Part shown: in pieces, positions 7,328 to 35,720 of the stretch
Position numbering within the stretch: position 1 is the first letter of the stretch
Layout of the letters: each line of letters starts with the position of its first letter
NCBI RefSeq assembly: GCF_007747655.1
Contig: NZ_CP036274.1
Span: forward strand, 5,642,001-5,706,000
DNA: 64,000 nucleotides
From: Anatilimnocola aggregata
Lineage (GTDB): Bacteria > Planctomycetota > Planctomycetia > Pirellulales > Pirellulaceae
Reading direction: 5' to 3'
Made by a program: the position numbers and the translations under genes
The notes under the pieces: model-generated
Databases searched by the model: none
What the model saw: only the letters and a program-made list of their open reading frames with translations
What the model was told of the DNA's origin: nothing

Positions 7328-8248
7328 ATGGCAAAGCCTGCGGTGCCTTTATCAGCGGAATTCGTTCGCGAACATCACTGGACGGCATTTCAACCGGTCC
7401 TGTGGATGGGCGCTCTGCTCCTCGGCAGCGGTACTTTTCACCTGGCGTGGATGGCGTTGACCGGAGCGGATTGGAACGGCCCGTTGTCGCTCCGCAAACC
7501 TGGACTCTTTGGCGTTTCCGCAGGATTGACGGCCTGGTCCATCGCTTGGGTCATGACCAAACTTCATCCACATCGGCTGGACCGCTGGCTTGCCTGCGGG
7601 TTGGCCGGCGGCTTGCTGCTTGAAGTCGGACTGATCACCGTGCAGCAGTGGCGGGGAGTCCCCTCGCACTTCAATCGCACGACGACCTTCGATGCCGCCG
7701 TCGAAGTAGTGATGCTCGGGCTGGTCTTGCTGGTCACGGCTGGCATCGTGTGGCTGACCTTGCGGACCTGCTGGCTCCCGGCGATGGACCATGCGACCGC
7801 GATCGCACTGCGCGGAGGGATGTGGCTGCTCACCCTCTCCTGCGGACTGGGAATCATGATCACGATTCTAGGAGAGCGGAACCTGGCGGCGGGCAAGCTG
7901 CCCGAGGTCTGGGGGCCTGCGGGCGTTTTGAAGTACCCGCACGGAGCTGCTCTGCACGCCATTCAAACGTTGCCGATTCTCGCTTGGCTGCTGCACCAGC
8001 TGCACGTGCCAAGGTCAGCTGGGCTCATTCATGCGGCACTCTGGTCTCAAGTTCTCTTCCTGGTCCACGCACTGTGGCAAACGATTCACGGACGCGCGCG
8101 TTTCGACTTGGATTGGGTCGGCGGAGCCATTTTCCTTGTCGCTGCACTGCTGATCTGTGCGCCCGTGGCCGTAATCGTGCAAGCGCTCTTCTCGTTCGCC
8201 GGCGCTTTGCGGTGGCGCAGTGCCTCACGAAACTCGACCACCAACTAA
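7328..8248 (+). CDS. Multi-pass membrane protein of unknown function
   Basis: The 306-residue protein has about eight hydrophobic segments, among them PVLWMGALLLGSGTFHLAWM, LFGVSAGLTAWSIAWVM, VVMLGLVLLVTAGIVWL and VGGAIFLVAALLICAPVAVI. His residues sit in or near several helices (GTFHLAW, YPHGAALHAIQTLPILAWLLH), which could bind haem or metal, but no known motif fixes this. It begins 8 bp after the SDR gene and should be co-transcribed with it. No family was recognised. Confidence 0.8.
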   Translation: MAKPAVPLSAEFVREHHWTAFQPVLWMGALLLGSGTFHLAWMALTGADWNGPLSLRKPGLFGVSAGLTAWSIAWVMTKLHPHRLDRWLACGLAGGLLLEVGLITVQQWRGVPSHFNRTTTFDAAVEVVMLGLVLLVTAGIVWLTLRTCWLPAMDHATAIALRGGMWLLTLSCGLGIMITILGERNLAAGKLPEVWGPAGVLKYPHGAALHAIQTLPILAWLLHQLHVPRSAGLIHAALWSQVLFLVHALWQTIHGRARFDLDWVGGAIFLVAALLICAPVAVIVQALFSFAGALRWRSASRNSTTN

Positions 8249-29415: not shown

Positions 29416-30246
29416 TTACGAAACTTGCTCTTGAGCCAGCACACCCATTACGAGCGCGCGAAGCTTGGGTTCTGCGGCATTGGCGGTGGCGATGATCTTG
29501 GGTACATCGGCCGGCTCGAGCGCATCGGGAAAACACATATCGGTAATGATCGAAAAGCCGACGACCTTGAGCCCGGCATGGACGGCGACGATCACTTCTG
29601 GCACGGTCGACATCCCCACGACATCGGCACCAATCAACCGGAGGAAGCGATACTCGGCCCGCGTTTCGAGATTCGGTCCCGATACGGCTACAAACACACC
29701 CTTGTGAGCGACAATGTTTTGCTTGCGAGCCACTTCGAGCGCGCGATCGACCAGTTGGCGGTCGTAGGGCTGGCTCATATCGGGGAAGCGCGGCCCCAGG
29801 CGGTCATCGTTCACCCCAATCAGCGGATTGCCACCCATCAAGTTGATGTGATCGTCGATCACCATGATGTCGCCGCATTGATAATACGGATTCATGCCTC
29901 CGCAAGCGTTCGAGACCACGAGCAGTTTCGCACCCAGCGACTTGAACACCCGCACCGGCAGGGTGATAGTGTCGAGAGGATACCCCTCATACATGTGAAA
30001 GCGGCCTTCCATCGCCATGACGGGCAGACCGCCAAGGGTGCCGCATATCAAGCGACCGCGATGGCTAATGGCCGTGCTGCGAGGGAAGTGCGGGATTTCG
30101 CTGTAGTCGATGGCCACATCCTGCTGCATCTGCTCAACGAGACTACCGAGCCCTGTTCCCAGGATAATGCCCGCGTGGGGCTGCTTGTTCCACTTGGAAC
30201 GGATGAATGCCGATGCTTCTTCAATCTTGGCGAACAAACCCTGCAT
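29416..30246 (-). CDS. Second purine nucleoside phosphorylase with an Asn-to-Asp specificity change
   Basis: The 276-residue protein is a PNP-II paralogue with [63 protein letters not shown] and [18 protein letters not shown]. The Asn243-equivalent is Asp236 here ([12 protein letters not shown]), as in methylthioadenosine phosphorylases, so 6-aminopurines such as adenosine or methylthioadenosine are likely substrates. I chose the ATG at 30246, which begins with [12 protein letters not shown]; the frame runs to 30321 without better support. It is probably co-transcribed with the first PNP. Confidence 0.9.
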
Positions 30247-30414
30247 GACAGCCTCGCGCGACGTCGAATCGTAACTGTTGACTACGGGCCAAGCGTACCG
30301 CAAGCGTCCAAGCGAGAGCAAGTGGCTGGCGAGGAATCTACGACTGCTGGATACGCAAACAAGTGCGGCAGAGCGCCTTGTTCCTGCGTTCCGGCCTCGG
30401 CTACCTTATAAACC

Positions 30415-31035
30415 ATGACCACGTTTCAACCTGCCGAATCCGCTCCCCTTGGCGAAAGCCAACTCGTGCAGCAGTTGCAGGCGGGGGACGGCGGCGCCTT
30501 CGAGCAATTAGTGCGCGAGCATGGCCCACGCTTGCTCGCGGTGGCTCGCCGGTATGTCGACAGCGACGCCGATTGCCAGGATGTGCTGCAGGACGCGCTA
30601 CTCTCGGCGTTTCGGTCGATCGGTCTGTTCAACGGACAGTCGCAGTTAGGAACCTGGCTGCATCGCATTACTGTTAACGCCGCTCTGATGAAGTTGCGAT
30701 CGCAGAGACGCCGACCTGAACGCTCCATCGAGGCTCTGTTGCCGAAATTCATTGAAGACGGTCATCGACTATGGCCGGGAGGCCCCTGGAAGGACGGAAA
30801 AACGCACGATCCGCTGCTAGCCCGCGAAACGTGCGAACTGGTTCGCAATTGCATCGATCAGTTGCCTGAGTCCTACCGCGTGATTCTGCTGCTCCGCGAT
30901 CTGGAGGAACGATCGGCAGAAGAAACCGCGGAACTACTGCAATTGAGCCCAGCCAACGTCAAGACCCGACTCCACCGAGCGCGACTCGCGCTGCGCGAAC
31001 TCTTGGACCCGCATTTTCAAGGACCGCCCTCGTGA
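30415..31035 (+). CDS. ECF RNA polymerase sigma factor
   Basis: The 206-residue sigma factor has region 2 (FEQLVREHGPRLLAVARRY, DCQDVLQDALLSAFRSIG) and region 4 (IDQLPESYRVILLLRDLEE, LQLSPANVKTRLHRARLAL). An extra basic segment (RSQRRRPERS) lies between regions 2 and 4. Its stop codon overlaps the start of a small zinc-type anti-sigma factor, so the pair is coupled. Downstream, after 237 bp, is the molybdenum hydroxylase operon, a possible target. Confidence 0.93.
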   Translation: MTTFQPAESAPLGESQLVQQLQAGDGGAFEQLVREHGPRLLAVARRYVDSDADCQDVLQDALLSAFRSIGLFNGQSQLGTWLHRITVNAALMKLRSQRRRPERSIEALLPKFIEDGHRLWPGGPWKDGKTHDPLLARETCELVRNCIDQLPESYRVILLLRDLEERSAEETAELLQLSPANVKTRLHRARLALRELLDPHFQGPPS

Positions 31036-31283
31036 CTTGCCAAGAGATTATTGAATTTCTAATGGACTATGTCGACGGCGAACTCCCCGCTGATCAACAG
31101 GCGATCTTCGCGCATCACCTTGAGATTTGCGCCGAATGTATGGACTATCTCCACAGCTATCAACAAACCGTGACGCTCGCTAAAGAGACCGGTTCGACCG
31201 AGTCGGCAGCCACACACAACTTTGCCCCAATTCCCGAAGAGTTGGTCAGGGCGATTCTCGCCGCGCGTGCTTCCGCCAAGTGA
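31032..31283 (+). CDS. Small zinc-finger-type anti-sigma factor
   Basis: The 83-residue protein starts at a GTG overlapping the sigma stop codon. It has the ZAS/zf-HC2 signature (EFLMDYVDGELPADQQAIF, then AHHLEICAECMDYL): His then C-x2-C, which binds zinc in the RsrA and ChrR families. No membrane helix follows, so it is a soluble anti-sigma factor. Thiol oxidation or metal loss is the usual release signal in this class; that is by analogy. Confidence 0.88.
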   Translation: MTCQEIIEFLMDYVDGELPADQQAIFAHHLEICAECMDYLHSYQQTVTLAKETGSTESAATHNFAPIPEELVRAILAARASAK

Positions 31284-31520: not shown

Positions 31521-32126
31521 ATGTCCCCAAGCACGAAGACTCCGGAACGGTCCGGAGGGTTCAGTCGGCGCGACTTCTTGCATGGCAGCGGCGCGGTGGC
31601 CGCAGCCGCCACGCTGCAAACCTCAGCGACAGCCTTCGCCCAACAGGCGACAGGTGCCGCGGTTGTCTCCGGCGAAACCACGATAGAGCTTTCGGTGAAC
31701 GGCACAAAGCATAAAGTGAAAGTCGAGCCTCGCACGACGCTGCTCGATGTTTTGCGCTTTCAACTCGACCTGACCGGTGCCAAACCGATTTGCACCGATG
31801 GCAGCAGCGGCGGCGCGACCATCCTTGTCGATGGCAAGCCAATGCAGGCCAACATCATGCTGGCGATGCAAGCAGTGGGGAAAGAAATTGCCACGGTCGA
31901 AAGCCTGGCCAAAGACAGGGTTCCCGCTGCATTCACAGCCTGCGACGCCCAGCAATGCGGCTTTTGCACACCCGGCTTCGTTGTCGCCGTGAAGGCGTTT
32001 CTCGATAAGAATCCCAAGGCCACGGAAGAACAGATTCGCAGCGGTCTCAACGGCAACATTTGCCGCTGTGGCACCTATGTGAATGTGGTTCAGGCCGCCG
32101 TGAAACTCGTGAAGGGAGACGCATAG
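31521..32126 (+). CDS. Tat-exported iron-sulfur subunit of a molybdenum hydroxylase, one cluster lost
   Basis: The 201-residue protein has a twin-arginine signal (FSRRDFLHGSGAVAAAATL) and the xanthine-dehydrogenase small-subunit fold. The C-terminal [2Fe-2S] ligands are intact: C141 and C146-GF-C149 (QCGFCTPG), then C181-R-C183. The N-terminal ferredoxin-type cluster is degenerate: only C91 of the C-x4-C-x2-C...C set remains, with Ser96, Ala99 and Asn111 in the other positions (ICTDGSSGGATI, then QANIM). It starts 3 codons after GAATCA without a strong ribosome-binding site. It is followed by the Mo and FAD subunits 2-50 bp downstream. Confidence 0.88.
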   Translation: MSPSTKTPERSGGFSRRDFLHGSGAVAAAATLQTSATAFAQQATGAAVVSGETTIELSVNGTKHKVKVEPRTTLLDVLRFQLDLTGAKPICTDGSSGGATILVDGKPMQANIMLAMQAVGKEIATVESLAKDRVPAAFTACDAQQCGFCTPGFVVAVKAFLDKNPKATEEQIRSGLNGNICRCGTYVNVVQAAVKLVKGDA

Positions 32127-32128
32127 TT

Positions 32129-34345
32129 ATGGCTGACGAAATTTATTACTGGCCGTCACGCGACAAGGCCCAACAACTGGGCAAGCGACACGTGCGGCTC
32201 GATGGCATGCCCAAGTCGACCGGCGCTGCCAAGTACACCTACGACATCAATCTGAAAAATCAACTCATCGCCCGCGCTCTCGGCTGCCCCCACGCGCACT
32301 GCAAGATCAAGTCGATCAATCTGGACGGGGCGAAGAAAGTGAAAGGCGTCGTTCACGTCGAGGCGCTCCGCAAGGAAGGCGAAGAGATCGAGTGGCAGGG
32401 TGAAATGCTCGCCGTCGTCGCTGCCGAAAGCGAAGTCGCAGCCGCCGAAGGCGTGAATGCCATCAAGATCGAGTACGAAATGCTCGAGTCGTTCACCAGC
32501 GAAGACGACCTCGAAACTGCGAAGAAGCTCGGTCGTACCGTGAAAGGTGGCGGCAAGGCAGTGACGGTGAAGGAACCGGGCGACGACGACGATGAAGACG
32601 AATTCGTCGACAAGGAAATTGCCCGCTTGCTGAAAGAGTCGGCCTACGTCGTCGAAGGTAGCTACGGCATTGATGCCATTACCCACTGCTGCTTGGAACC
32701 ACACGGTTCGACGGTCGAGTGGCAAGGCAACAAGTTGATGGTTCACCTGTCGACCCAGAACGTTTCGGGCACCGATGAGGGTTTTGCCAAAGACCTGAAC
32801 ATCACCTCCGACGATGTTGAAGTTCACTGCGACTACATCGGTGGTGGCTTCGGCAGTAAGTTCGCTCCCGATCTGTGGGGCATTGCCGCCGCCCGCATCA
32901 GCAAGGCAACCGGTCGTCCCGTTAAGTTCATGCTCACGCGACTTCAGGAACAGCAGTTGGGTGGCAATCGTCCCAGCGGCTATCTCAAGGTGAAGCTCGG
33001 GGCCGACAAGGACGGTGTGATTCAGGTTTGGGATTCGGAACATTGGGGCAGCGCAGGGGCAATCCCCGGTGGTGTTAGCCATACGGTCGTTCCGTATGTC
33101 TTCGCGCCGAAGAATTATCGCCGGCTGCAGACGAATTTGAAGACGAACACGGCTCAGTCGCGCGCCTGGCGTGCTCCGAATCATCCGCAATCCTGCGCGA
33201 TGACTCAGACCGCTATCGACGACCTGGCTCGCAAGATGGGGGCCAATAGTTACGACATCTTCCTGAAGAACCTCGGGACCGACGATGCTCCTGGCATCGG
33301 CGGAGCCAAGCCTTCGGTTTACAAAGCCGAAATGGAAATCGCTGCCAAGCTGATGGACTGGAGTGCCAAGTGGCATCCGCACGGCAAGGGCAAGAAGCAA
33401 GGCTCGGTGGTGGAAGGGCTTGGAATGGCCATCCACACTTGGGGTGGCAAGGCGAACAGCTCGAATTGCCTCCTAAAGATTTACCCAGACGGCGGCGTCG
33501 AGACAACCTGCGGCACGCAGGACCTCGGCGTCGGCACGCGAACCGTGCTGGCTGTGGTGTTGGCCGAAACGTTTGGTCTCCCTTACGAAAGCATCAAGGT
33601 GAACATCGGTTCGTCCAAGATGCCCGTCAGCGGTCCTTCGGGTGGCAGCACGACCGTAGGGGGCGTTTGCGAATCGCATCGCCGCGCCGGTCAAGATGCC
33701 TTCCGCCAGATTGCCGAACTCGTCGGCAAGAAGCTGGGTGTCGATCCCGCCACGCTGGAAGCGGTGAAGGGGCGTGTGCAGGTTGCCGGCAAGCCTGACA
33801 AAGGTCTGTCGTGGAAAGAAGCCTGCACACTGATTGGGATGCGTCCGCTGGAAGTGACTGGCTCGTACAAGATCGATACCCCCAGCCCGCTGTCGAGTCA
33901 GCAGGTCGGCGGCGTGCAAATGGCCCATGTGGCTGTCGATACCGATACGGGTATCGTCAAGCTGAAGAAATTCGTCGCCGTGCAAGACATCGGCCTCGTT
34001 GTCTGCCGCCAGCAAGCAGAGAGCCAAATTTACGGCTCGGCAGTGATGGGTATCGCGTATGCGTTGTTCGAACAGCGGATTACCGATCCCAAGACCGGTG
34101 CCTTCGTGAATGCCGAACTCGCGCAGTACAAGCTGCCGCGCATCGGTGACATTGGCGAAGTGGTGTGTGAATTTTATGAACCAGACGATCAGCGTTCGCG
34201 CGGCGTGATTGGCATCGGCGAACCGCCGGTCATCTCGCCCGGAGCGGCGATCAGCAATGCGGTCTGCAATGCTTTGGGCATTCGCGTTCCGGTCCTTCCC
34301 ATCACGCCGCAACGCGTGCTGGAAGCTCTGAAGGCCAAAGCGTAA
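32129..34345 (+). CDS. Molybdenum-binding catalytic subunit, xanthine dehydrogenase family
   Basis: The 738-residue protein has the aldehyde oxidase/xanthine dehydrogenase a/b hammerhead near the start (GKRHVRLDGMPKSTGAAKYT) and Mo-pterin binding motifs: LSTQNVSGT, IGGGFGSKF, RAWRAPNHPQ, CGTQDLGVGTRT and GPSGGSTTVGG. The catalytic Glu is present in GVIGIGEPPVISPGAA. No signal peptide is present, so it is probably carried out by the Tat signal of the Fe-S subunit. An acidic insert (EPGDDDDEDEFVD) lies near residue 150. The substrate, likely an aldehyde or N-heterocycle, cannot be read. Confidence 0.92.
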   Translation: MADEIYYWPSRDKAQQLGKRHVRLDGMPKSTGAAKYTYDINLKNQLIARALGCPHAHCKIKSINLDGAKKVKGVVHVEALRKEGEEIEWQGEMLAVVAAESEVAAAEGVNAIKIEYEMLESFTSEDDLETAKKLGRTVKGGGKAVTVKEPGDDDDEDEFVDKEIARLLKESAYVVEGSYGIDAITHCCLEPHGSTVEWQGNKLMVHLSTQNVSGTDEGFAKDLNITSDDVEVHCDYIGGGFGSKFAPDLWGIAAARISKATGRPVKFMLTRLQEQQLGGNRPSGYLKVKLGADKDGVIQVWDSEHWGSAGAIPGGVSHTVVPYVFAPKNYRRLQTNLKTNTAQSRAWRAPNHPQSCAMTQTAIDDLARKMGANSYDIFLKNLGTDDAPGIGGAKPSVYKAEMEIAAKLMDWSAKWHPHGKGKKQGSVVEGLGMAIHTWGGKANSSNCLLKIYPDGGVETTCGTQDLGVGTRTVLAVVLAETFGLPYESIKVNIGSSKMPVSGPSGGSTTVGGVCESHRRAGQDAFRQIAELVGKKLGVDPATLEAVKGRVQVAGKPDKGLSWKEACTLIGMRPLEVTGSYKIDTPSPLSSQQVGGVQMAHVAVDTDTGIVKLKKFVAVQDIGLVVCRQQAESQIYGSAVMGIAYALFEQRITDPKTGAFVNAELAQYKLPRIGDIGEVVCEFYEPDDQRSRGVIGIGEPPVISPGAAISNAVCNALGIRVPVLPITPQRVLEALKAKA

Positions 34346-34394
34346 GCCGGTTCAACTTACTCACCACACAAAACCATCATGGAATCGTTAAGTC

Positions 34395-35384
34395 ATGAAA
34401 AACTTTGAATATGCGTCGCCGCGGACTGAAGCTGAGGTGCTTTCGCTTCTCAGTTCTCAGGCCGGGCATACGGAAATCCTCGCGGGCGGCACCGACCTGA
34501 TCGGCCTGATGCAGGCTCAGATCGTTCGCCCCGAGCGCGTCGTCAACATCCTGGAAGTCCCGTCACTGAAGACGATCGAGCAGCTCGATAACGGCGTGCT
34601 CGCGGTCGGTGCAGTAGTCACGCTCGATGTGCTGCTCGATCATCCCTACCTCACTCCTTACCCCGCGCTAAAGCAGGCGATCGAAGGGATCGCCAGCATG
34701 CAACTGCAATGTCAGGGAACGCTAGGCGGGGAAGTGCTGCAGCGGCCGCAATGCTGGTTCTTCCGCCAAGGGCGAGGTTTGCTCGCCGGTGGTGGAAAGT
34801 TGGCAGCCGAGGGTGACAATCGCTTCCACGCGATTTTCGGCAACCACGGCGCTGCCAAGTTCGTGAGCAACTCGCGACTGGCTCCCGCGCTCGTCGCGCT
34901 GAACGCTCAGGTGCGAGTGATCGGACCGGGCGAGGCTGACGAAAAGCTGATGTCGGCCGAGCAACTCTATCGCGCTCCGCGACATGAAGCAGAACGTGAG
35001 CACACGCTGTTGCCGAATCAGTTGGTCACTCATCTGCTGATTCCCGCTTCGACCGGCTTCAACGCCACGTACGAAGTGCGGCATGGTGCGGGCCCTGATT
35101 ATCCGCTGGCTTCGGCCGCTGTTTCGTTGCAGATCGAAGGGGGCATCGTACAAGATGCTCGCATCGTCCTCGGCCACGTGGCTCCCACGCCGTGGTTGTC
35201 GCTCGATGCGGCTGCTGAACTCGTGGGCAAGCCGGTGACGGAAGAGACCGCTGCCGCTGCTGGAGCTGCTGCCGTGGTCGCTGCCTCGCCACTTTCCAAC
35301 AACGAATACAAGGTCCAACTGACAAAGATCGCCGTGAAACGGGCAATCCTGCGCGCTGCTGGCCTGGAAACGGGTGGGCTCTAA
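34395..35384 (+). CDS. FAD-binding subunit, xanthine dehydrogenase family
   Basis: The 329-residue protein has the two FAD motifs of subunit M: ILAGGTDLIGLMQAQ at about residue 28 and QCQGTLGGEVLQRPQCWFF at about 115. The CO-dehydrogenase flavoprotein C-terminal domain lies at about 215-325. In the classical enzyme it receives electrons through both Fe-S clusters. As the adjacent Fe-S subunit has lost the cluster nearest FAD, the path here is uncertain. A 49-bp gap separates it from the Mo subunit. Confidence 0.9.
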   Translation: MKNFEYASPRTEAEVLSLLSSQAGHTEILAGGTDLIGLMQAQIVRPERVVNILEVPSLKTIEQLDNGVLAVGAVVTLDVLLDHPYLTPYPALKQAIEGIASMQLQCQGTLGGEVLQRPQCWFFRQGRGLLAGGGKLAAEGDNRFHAIFGNHGAAKFVSNSRLAPALVALNAQVRVIGPGEADEKLMSAEQLYRAPRHEAEREHTLLPNQLVTHLLIPASTGFNATYEVRHGAGPDYPLASAAVSLQIEGGIVQDARIVLGHVAPTPWLSLDAAAELVGKPVTEETAAAAGAAAVVAASPLSNNEYKVQLTKIAVKRAILRAAGLETGGL

Positions 35385-35480
35385 GTAGCCGCTGGATCAA
35401 TGCCTGGAGTCGCGGCCACACCTTGGCCGCGACCCGCCAACCTCCGATTCGAGCCAACAACCATCCTTTGGGGATCGATC

Positions 35481-35720
35481 ATGCCCTTCGAAAAATCTTA
35501 CGACGAAGCACCGAAAGTCGCGACTCCGCCCTGTGTGTACTTGCGTAACAAAGCCATGTATGTGCGCGGAACCGTGGGTGACGCTGAACGGTTTCCGGAT
35601 GAGTCCGGCGCTGGCTATTGCTGGTGCAACATGACGCAGCACGTGCTCGGGCCCGATAGCCAGCATGTGACCCGCGCCGATTGTGTTCCCACTCGCGAAT
35701 GCTACCGCGAGACGTACTAA
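35481..35720 (+). CDS. Small Cys-containing protein at the end of the molybdenum hydroxylase operon
   Basis: The 79-residue protein begins MPFEKSYDEAPKVATPPCVY and contains five Cys (CVYLRNKAM, then CWCNMTQHVLGPDS, ADCVPTREC). It has no signal peptide or membrane helix. The CWC and other Cys could bind metal or form disulfides. It lies 96 bp downstream of the FAD subunit on the same strand. I do not recognise a family. Confidence 0.65.
   Translation: MPFEKSYDEAPKVATPPCVYLRNKAMYVRGTVGDAERFPDESGAGYCWCNMTQHVLGPDSQHVTRADCVPTRECYRETY

Follow-up and report, generated by a model that had tools for sequence, protein, structure and literature searches.

The window analysed here, a 64,000-nucleotide stretch of the genome of Anatilimnocola aggregata (contig NZ_CP036274.1, positions 5,642,001 to 5,706,000), contains an operon for a molybdenum enzyme of the xanthine oxidase family. 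Its four genes encode a small iron-sulphur subunit (S), a molybdenum subunit (L), a subunit of the type that binds flavin adenine dinucleotide (FAD) (M) and a small cysteine protein (X) (Table 1). Two [2Fe-2S] clusters, called here FeS I and FeS II, are the family norm according to the part of PMC3958847 available to us. The enzyme of the window has the molybdenum-cofactor domains, the catalytic glutamate and the FeS I ligands of the family, and an XdhC-type protein is encoded in the genome, but of the four cysteines of FeS II only one is left. The sequences leave very little doubt that two cluster sites, FeS II in S and a [4Fe-4S]-type site in M, have been lost in an enzyme that is otherwise kept.

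In S, cysteines are found at positions 91, 141, 146, 149, 181 and 183 only. Alignment with relatives that have all four ligands places C91, S96, A99 and N111 at the FeS II positions. This bears out the claim of an earlier note on this DNA that three of the four ligands are gone and that the route to FAD is thereby broken, and the loss proves to be wider than first noted. FeS I, which the earlier note had described as intact, is so with respect to C146, C149, C181 and C183; C141, which that note had listed with them, is no ligand, its place being taken by His, Asn, Ala, Glu and other residues in orthologues. At expect values (E) up to 0.001, Pfam recognises in S a twin-arginine translocation (Tat) signal, in agreement with the export proposed earlier, and Fer2_2, the domain of FeS I; the FeS II domain, Fer2, is not found by Pfam at that threshold. 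An AlphaFold model of S has a mean predicted local distance difference test (pLDDT) score of 70.5, and its top structure matches are iron-sulphur subunits of the xanthine oxidase family (5y6q_A, 1rm6_C and others). The placement of the domains is unsure, because the template modelling score is about 0.5 and the root-mean-square deviation about 10 Å.

The second lost site, which the earlier note had not noticed, is in M. Its closest solved relatives, 5y6q_B, 1rm6_B and 5g5g_B, carry four cysteines within an inserted segment, which we take to be the [4Fe-4S]-binding element of 4-hydroxybenzoyl-CoA reductase and PaoB. This four-cysteine set is absent from all 52 FeS II-less rows for which an M sequence is available. 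Only the first cysteine, Cys120, stays; position 130 is Leu, Phe, Val or Pro and position 154 is Ala or Ser in 52/52 rows, and the third of the other former cysteine positions falls in a gappy stretch. The rows from Gemmataceae and Isosphaera keep all four. Cys120 itself (34752-34754) is invariant in the 52 rows despite the loss of its three partners.

The FAD site of M is altered as well. The note had recorded both FAD motifs as kept, which is true of their cores: AGGTDL and TxGG (TLGG in the window) are retained in nearly all rows, and the Pfam FAD domain is present. The surrounding site has changed, the Asn after GG being replaced by Glu or Asp (E/D113) and a conserved Asp by Arg (R161), each in 52 of 52 rows. 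Both positions presumably match the FAD-contacting residues Asn351 and Asp360 of bovine xanthine dehydrogenase.

The catalytic half of the enzyme appears to be preserved. MoCoBD_1, MoCoBD_2 and Ald_Xan_dh_C all score above the Pfam cut-off in L, whose best solved match is PaoC of PaoABC (E 3.9e-63). Glu698, to which we assign the catalytic role that the corresponding residue is taken to have in the xanthine oxidase family, is kept, as had been claimed. Position 184 of L is Ile in the window and in 5/5 rows from Gemmataceae and Isosphaera, and Gln in 14/16 rows of other lineages; because those Gemmataceae and Isosphaera rows have an intact wire, the change from Gln to Ile is older than the cluster loss. 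The XdhC-type protein of the genome (C1:1796650-1797711, E 1.3e-125) has homologues in 35 of 37 near genomes with a small subunit of this clade, when all matches with E no higher than 0.001 are counted, some being weak or fragmentary. In L057 and L038-L040 the XdhC gene is found close to the operon with a MobA-like gene next to it; in the window's genome a neighbour of XdhC, away from the operon (L156), resembles the MobA-like gene of L057. This pairing fits a mature cofactor. It would also be compatible with molybdopterin cytosine dinucleotide as the cofactor, of which it is no proof.

Table 1. Genes and sites of the molybdenum enzyme operon, in window coordinates
Feature	Position	Strand	Details
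Small subunit S, 201 aa	31521..32126	+	ATG at 31521, stop ends at 32126; Tat signal, vacated FeS II domain, intact FeS I domain
Twin-arginine signal of S, residues 14-32	31560..31616	+	Pfam TAT_signal, E 1.4e-6
FeS II ligand stretch of S, residues 91-111 (Cys91, Ser96, Ala99, Asn111)	31791..31853	+	Alignment
FeS I ligands of S (Cys146, Cys149, Cys181, Cys183)	31956..32069	+	CCCC in 83/83 aligned rows
Molybdenum subunit L, 738 aa	32129..34345	+	Pfam MoCoBD_1, MoCoBD_2, Ald_Xan_dh_C; nearest solved PaoC, 5g5h/5g5g
Catalytic Glu of L, E698, in GIGEPP motif	34220..34222	+	E in 54/54 FeS II-less rows with a residue there, 3 gaps
FAD-type subunit M, 329 aa	34395..35384	+	Pfam FAD_binding_5, CO_deh_flav_C; nearest solved 5y6q_B, 1rm6_B, 5g5g_B
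Glu113 of M, replacing Asn after TxGG	34731..34733	+	E/D in 52/52 FeS II-less rows with M; N in three solved relatives
Former four-Cys ([4Fe-4S]-type) segment of M	34740..34868	+	Cys120 the sole Cys left
Arg161 of M, replacing conserved Asp	34875..34877	+	R in 52/52 FeS II-less rows with M; D in three solved relatives
X, small Cys protein, 79 aa, fourth gene of operon	35481..35720	+	Invariant C18, C49, C68, C74 and GPD in 19 aligned rows

The loss of FeS II was followed through 98 near genomes, 396 genomes of the order and 392 genomes of the phylum. Of the near genomes, 37 encode a protein closely homologous to S (E up to 1.0e-61), the next match being at 8.7e-37. In the order, homologues at E up to 1.5e-71 are present in 47 genomes, and the full FeS II cysteine set is absent from all 47 (the window and 46 fetched sequences). 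Among the 48 order genomes with a match better than E 1e-60, one, G212 (L098, E 3.7e-63), has all four FeS II cysteines; it keeps every cluster and sits on a long branch outside the FeS II-less clade. Full cysteine sets are also seen in G074 of the same order (L099, E 3.2e-49), and the weaker order paralogues (E 1e-48 and weaker), partly read, include L002, L003 and L099 with all four FeS II cysteines. In f21, a different family of the same class, three genomes (L130-L132) have Lys or Glu, Asp, Asp, and Gly or Ser at the FeS II positions. Across the phylum, S is found at E up to 1e-52 in 97 genomes, and the ligands were read in every one: five (G000, G041, G502, G678 and G702) are without FeS II and 92 have four cysteines. 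As a separate observation, one relative (L041:6001-12468) has lost part of the FeS II loop, and its matches to the molybdenum subunit are in pieces spread across several kilobases; it looks broken or misassembled.

Whether the particular Ser/Ala/Asn pattern is conserved across planctomycetes had been posed as a question. The loss itself extends throughout the clade; the CSAN pattern is found in only 4 of 57 FeS II-less rows (a count that excludes L097), the commonest being SSSS (24), followed by SSSN (10), with SCSA in 4, SSCS, SSCN, STSS, SSAA and KDDG in 2 each, and SSSA, SAAD, CSSA, AVSG and EDDS in 1 each. Every row has none or one of the four cysteines. The window has one, and its Cys91 is one among several mixed states.

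Two explanations raised at the outset, a sequencing or assembly error and an isolated damaged copy with intact homologues in the same genus, both fail. The same-genus genome G001, 80-85% identical, also has C-S-A-N at the FeS II positions, the same residues recur in L045 and L081, and the genome of the window is a single contig of 9,007,740 bases. A one-off damaged copy is further contradicted by the 47/47 close order homologues and by low ratios of nonsynonymous to synonymous substitution (dN/dS) in the comparison of the window with its congener. S gives 0.088 (FeS II domain 0.14, FeS I domain 0.04), L gives 0.108 and M gives 0.07; these figures are rough because dS is above 1. For X the synonymous sites are saturated between the congeners, and no value was obtained. 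These ratios show S, L and M to be under apparent purifying selection in one congener pair. A second small subunit that supplies FeS II is not favoured either, the other matches in the genome being L002, which has L and M matches of its own, and L003, a 517-aa open frame.

The two losses can be ordered on trees. On the molybdenum-subunit tree (80 rows) the absence of FeS II is one change, and a tree of 27 rows unites those without FeS II in a single clade with support 100/100. Sister to this clade, with support 100/99 on the 27-row tree, is f41 (L135, L140), which lacks the four-cysteine set of M, keeps FeS II, and already has E/D113 in M together with W347 and F378 in L, two residues that it has in common with the clade. 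R161 of M is seen only together with FeS II loss. Because f41 keeps FeS II yet is without the four-cysteine set, the trees show that the putative [4Fe-4S]-type site was lost first and FeS II second. The same combination, four-cysteine set absent and FeS II kept, occurs in L133 (f22), whose placement is weakly supported. A single loss of the [4Fe-4S]-type set is not rejected (p 0.099, 27 rows); free trees need more than one change for it (3 on the 80-row tree).

X had been noted earlier as a five-cysteine protein that might be involved in passing on electrons. It is a genuine member of the operon: most of the loci fetched have it downstream of M, and some contigs stop short of it. In the phylum, X matches occur in 101 genomes and both S and X in 84, of which 79 have the two genes 3.35-4.66 kb apart and 5 have them on separate contigs; 13 genomes with S have no X match. 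X is, on the sequences, an apparently uncharacterised family of small cysteine proteins tied to the operon in Planctomycetota, with the motifs C..L.SK, WC, GPD and C-x5-C. It matches no Pfam or NCBIfam family and has no convincing PDB match (one row hit FeThRed_B at E 0.015), and structure prediction from 8 rows gave no usable model (pLDDT 38). Since X also occurs beside intact FeS II and intact M cysteines, it did not originate to take the place of FeS II, and its case as the substitute is weakened.

Two further orphan families, for which we coin the names WLCK and CDIC, follow the enzyme. In about 20 of 82 loci the upstream region holds DUF1326, WLCK and, at FeS II-less loci, CDIC. The CDIC protein has a CxxC...CxCC arrangement with five invariant cysteines in 15 aligned rows, and the N-termini of both families resemble signal peptides by eye. 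In the window's genome the pair lies at 7.56 Mb, far from the operon (L155:6862-7344 and 7375-8061); in many relatives it is adjacent. WLCK is found in 37/37 of the near genomes with a clade small subunit and in 4/61 others, one of these at E 2.9e-4 (Fisher p 7.5e-23), and CDIC in 35/37 and 1/61, respectively (p 5.0e-23); neither p value is corrected for kinship. In the phylum, CDIC matches occur in 11 of 392 genomes, including 5/5 of those without FeS II, at E up to 5.1e-44. Strong CDIC matches thus appear almost only where FeS II is lost, and as far as the sequences tell, CDIC is a better apparent tracker of FeS II loss than X. No convincing family or PDB match was found for CDIC; one row reached 22.2 bits with CheW, against a cut-off of 23.5, and three rows matched HD_4, at best with 0.016.

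Other neighbours can be mentioned briefly. A protein of the DUF3500 family recurs near the operon (L066:2674-3864, and similarly L049, L050, L055 and L064). Directly upstream of the operon in the window, at 30415-31283 and in the same direction, are by reading an extracytoplasmic function (ECF)-type sigma factor and a short anti-sigma-like protein, possible regulators. A purine nucleoside phosphorylase gene at 29416-30321, also identified by reading, is on the opposite strand and outside the list of conserved neighbours.

What could an enzyme do with its electrons if the wire is cut? The enzyme is probably secreted, and either hands on electrons in an unusual manner or does without handing them on. 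In a related enzyme, the redox centres are in line, with neighbours 13.5, 13.8 and 10.8 Å apart (13.8 Å between the two FeS clusters and 10.8 Å from FeS to FAD), and a spacing under 14 Å is given as usual, as stated in the portion of PMC8305194 that we consulted. By that geometry, the distance from FeS I to FAD without FeS II would be well over 20 Å. Because of this gap and the altered FAD domain, we propose that electrons exit at FeS I. Our preferred reading, to which we assign a probability of about 0.5, is that a xanthine-oxidase-family enzyme was reduced to the molybdenum cofactor and FeS I, and would deliver electrons to a periplasmic partner, bypassing FAD. The [4Fe-4S]-type site of M was dismantled first, and then FeS II along with the further change in the FAD site; the FeS II domain and M would have been retained as a scaffold. 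The substrate would still be oxidised at molybdenum, and electrons would pass to FeS I and from there to a carrier docked on the complex rather than to FAD. CDIC, with its CxxC...CxCC, would be the best candidate for this carrier and X the second. A stricter and more tentative version is that there is no flavin route at all: the molybdenum cofactor and FeS I would be the sole redox centres, M would be an apo-scaffold or hold some other ligand through Cys120, and the newly recruited CxxC...CxCC protein would take electrons from FeS I.

Several observations weigh against a bypass through such a carrier. FeS I is buried in known enzymes, so that direct exit from it would need a hypothetical docking site. 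CDIC and X are without an assigned cofactor, and the X model has the low pLDDT given above. The link between CDIC and the loss of FeS II is not strict, because weaker matches occur in 3 of the 92 four-cysteine phylum genomes (G782, 3.3e-23; G717, 5.9e-10; G700, 9.0e-8) and in three genomes that have no S match at E up to 1e-52 (G613, G691 and G575, 2.5e-15 to 8.2e-6); of these, G782 carries the f22 locus L133, where FeS II is kept and the four-cysteine set of M is lost. The CDIC counts are not independent events, because the link rests on about one clade. G023 and G045 have the enzyme without a CDIC match, and G093 has CDIC and WLCK without a small subunit of the clade, a state that is either a draft gap or a sign that the pair works without the enzyme. 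WLCK also accompanies enzymes whose wire is intact (L038-L040).

The chief alternative is that the molybdenum site now catalyses a redox-neutral reaction, such as an isomerisation, a hydration or a transhydroxylation-like reaction, for which no wire would be needed and FeS I would be structural. The loss of the centres beyond FeS I and the changes E/D113 and R161 in M would suit it, as would certain changes in L, among them W347 and F378, putatively pocket-lining and shared with f41. We nevertheless consider it unlikely, since the FeS I ligands are retained in every row, the catalytic Glu is retained, the enzyme is inherited together with two orphan families, of which one is rich in cysteine, and W347 and F378 predate the loss of FeS II.

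It is less probable again that FAD is still fed from FeS I by long tunnelling across the empty FeS II site. The conserved AGGTDL and TxGG cores and the low congener dN/dS of M speak for it, but by the geometry in the consulted portion of PMC8305194, where a spacing under 14 Å is given as usual, the distance would be well over 20 Å, and E/D113 and R161 replace FAD-domain residues that match the Asn and Asp of the solved relatives. We regard as improbable the idea that the FeS II pocket still houses a metal centre, bound by Ser, by other residues or with a ligand that a partner provides: in the order the loop is well conserved (consensus KPVSxDGSSGAST), but there is no common ligand set, the positions varying from SSSS, SSSN and SCSA to SSAA, AVSG, KDDG, EDDS and others. 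A decaying operon with an inactive enzyme is very improbable, for although ligand loss by itself would look alike, congener dN/dS is 0.07-0.11 for S, L and M, the four genes stay together in most fetched order loci, and FeS I and the catalytic Glu are retained.

The locus is a case in which an electron chain has been removed stepwise while the enzyme was kept, with intermediate stages that persist in living relatives. It offers a way to test which centres turnover requires, what a cluster-less iron-sulphur domain does, and how a redox enzyme might switch partners. Three uncharacterised families, X, WLCK and CDIC, are tied to the enzyme, and naming these genes at the family level, for example as xanthine dehydrogenase, may mislead. 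A description of this cluster loss was not found among the literature matches listed, which comprised titles and the starts of abstracts and had most subscription journals outside their coverage.

Finally, we compare the enzyme with known systems. Desulfovibrio gigas aldehyde oxidoreductase resembles the proposed state in that it works without an FAD domain, according to the accessible part of PMC3958847; it differs in having the two [2Fe-2S] clusters of the family norm, stated in the same part, and no FAD-type subunit. 4-Hydroxybenzoyl-CoA reductase (PDB 1rm6) has the same inserted segment in its FAD subunit, with four cysteines where M of the window has only the first; its additional [4Fe-4S] cluster is named in the title of its structure paper. 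The periplasmic aldehyde oxidoreductase of E. coli, PaoABC (PDB 5g5g), shares the three-subunit plan and the Tat signal on the small subunit, and supplies the best solved match of L and the third-best solved FAD subunit for M. It has two [2Fe-2S] clusters, as given in the same accessible part of PMC3958847, whereas the window enzyme is without FeS II; PaoABC has four cysteines in the FAD-subunit segment and M keeps only C120, and the window operon adds X. Among relatives, f41 and f22 resemble the window enzyme in lacking the four-cysteine set of M, f41 also in E/D113, W347 and F378, and both differ in their intact FeS II. The Gemmataceae and Isosphaera loci (L036-L040) share the S-L-M-X order, with XdhC and MobA-like genes upstream of the operon in L038-L040, but have every FeS II and M-segment cysteine in place.

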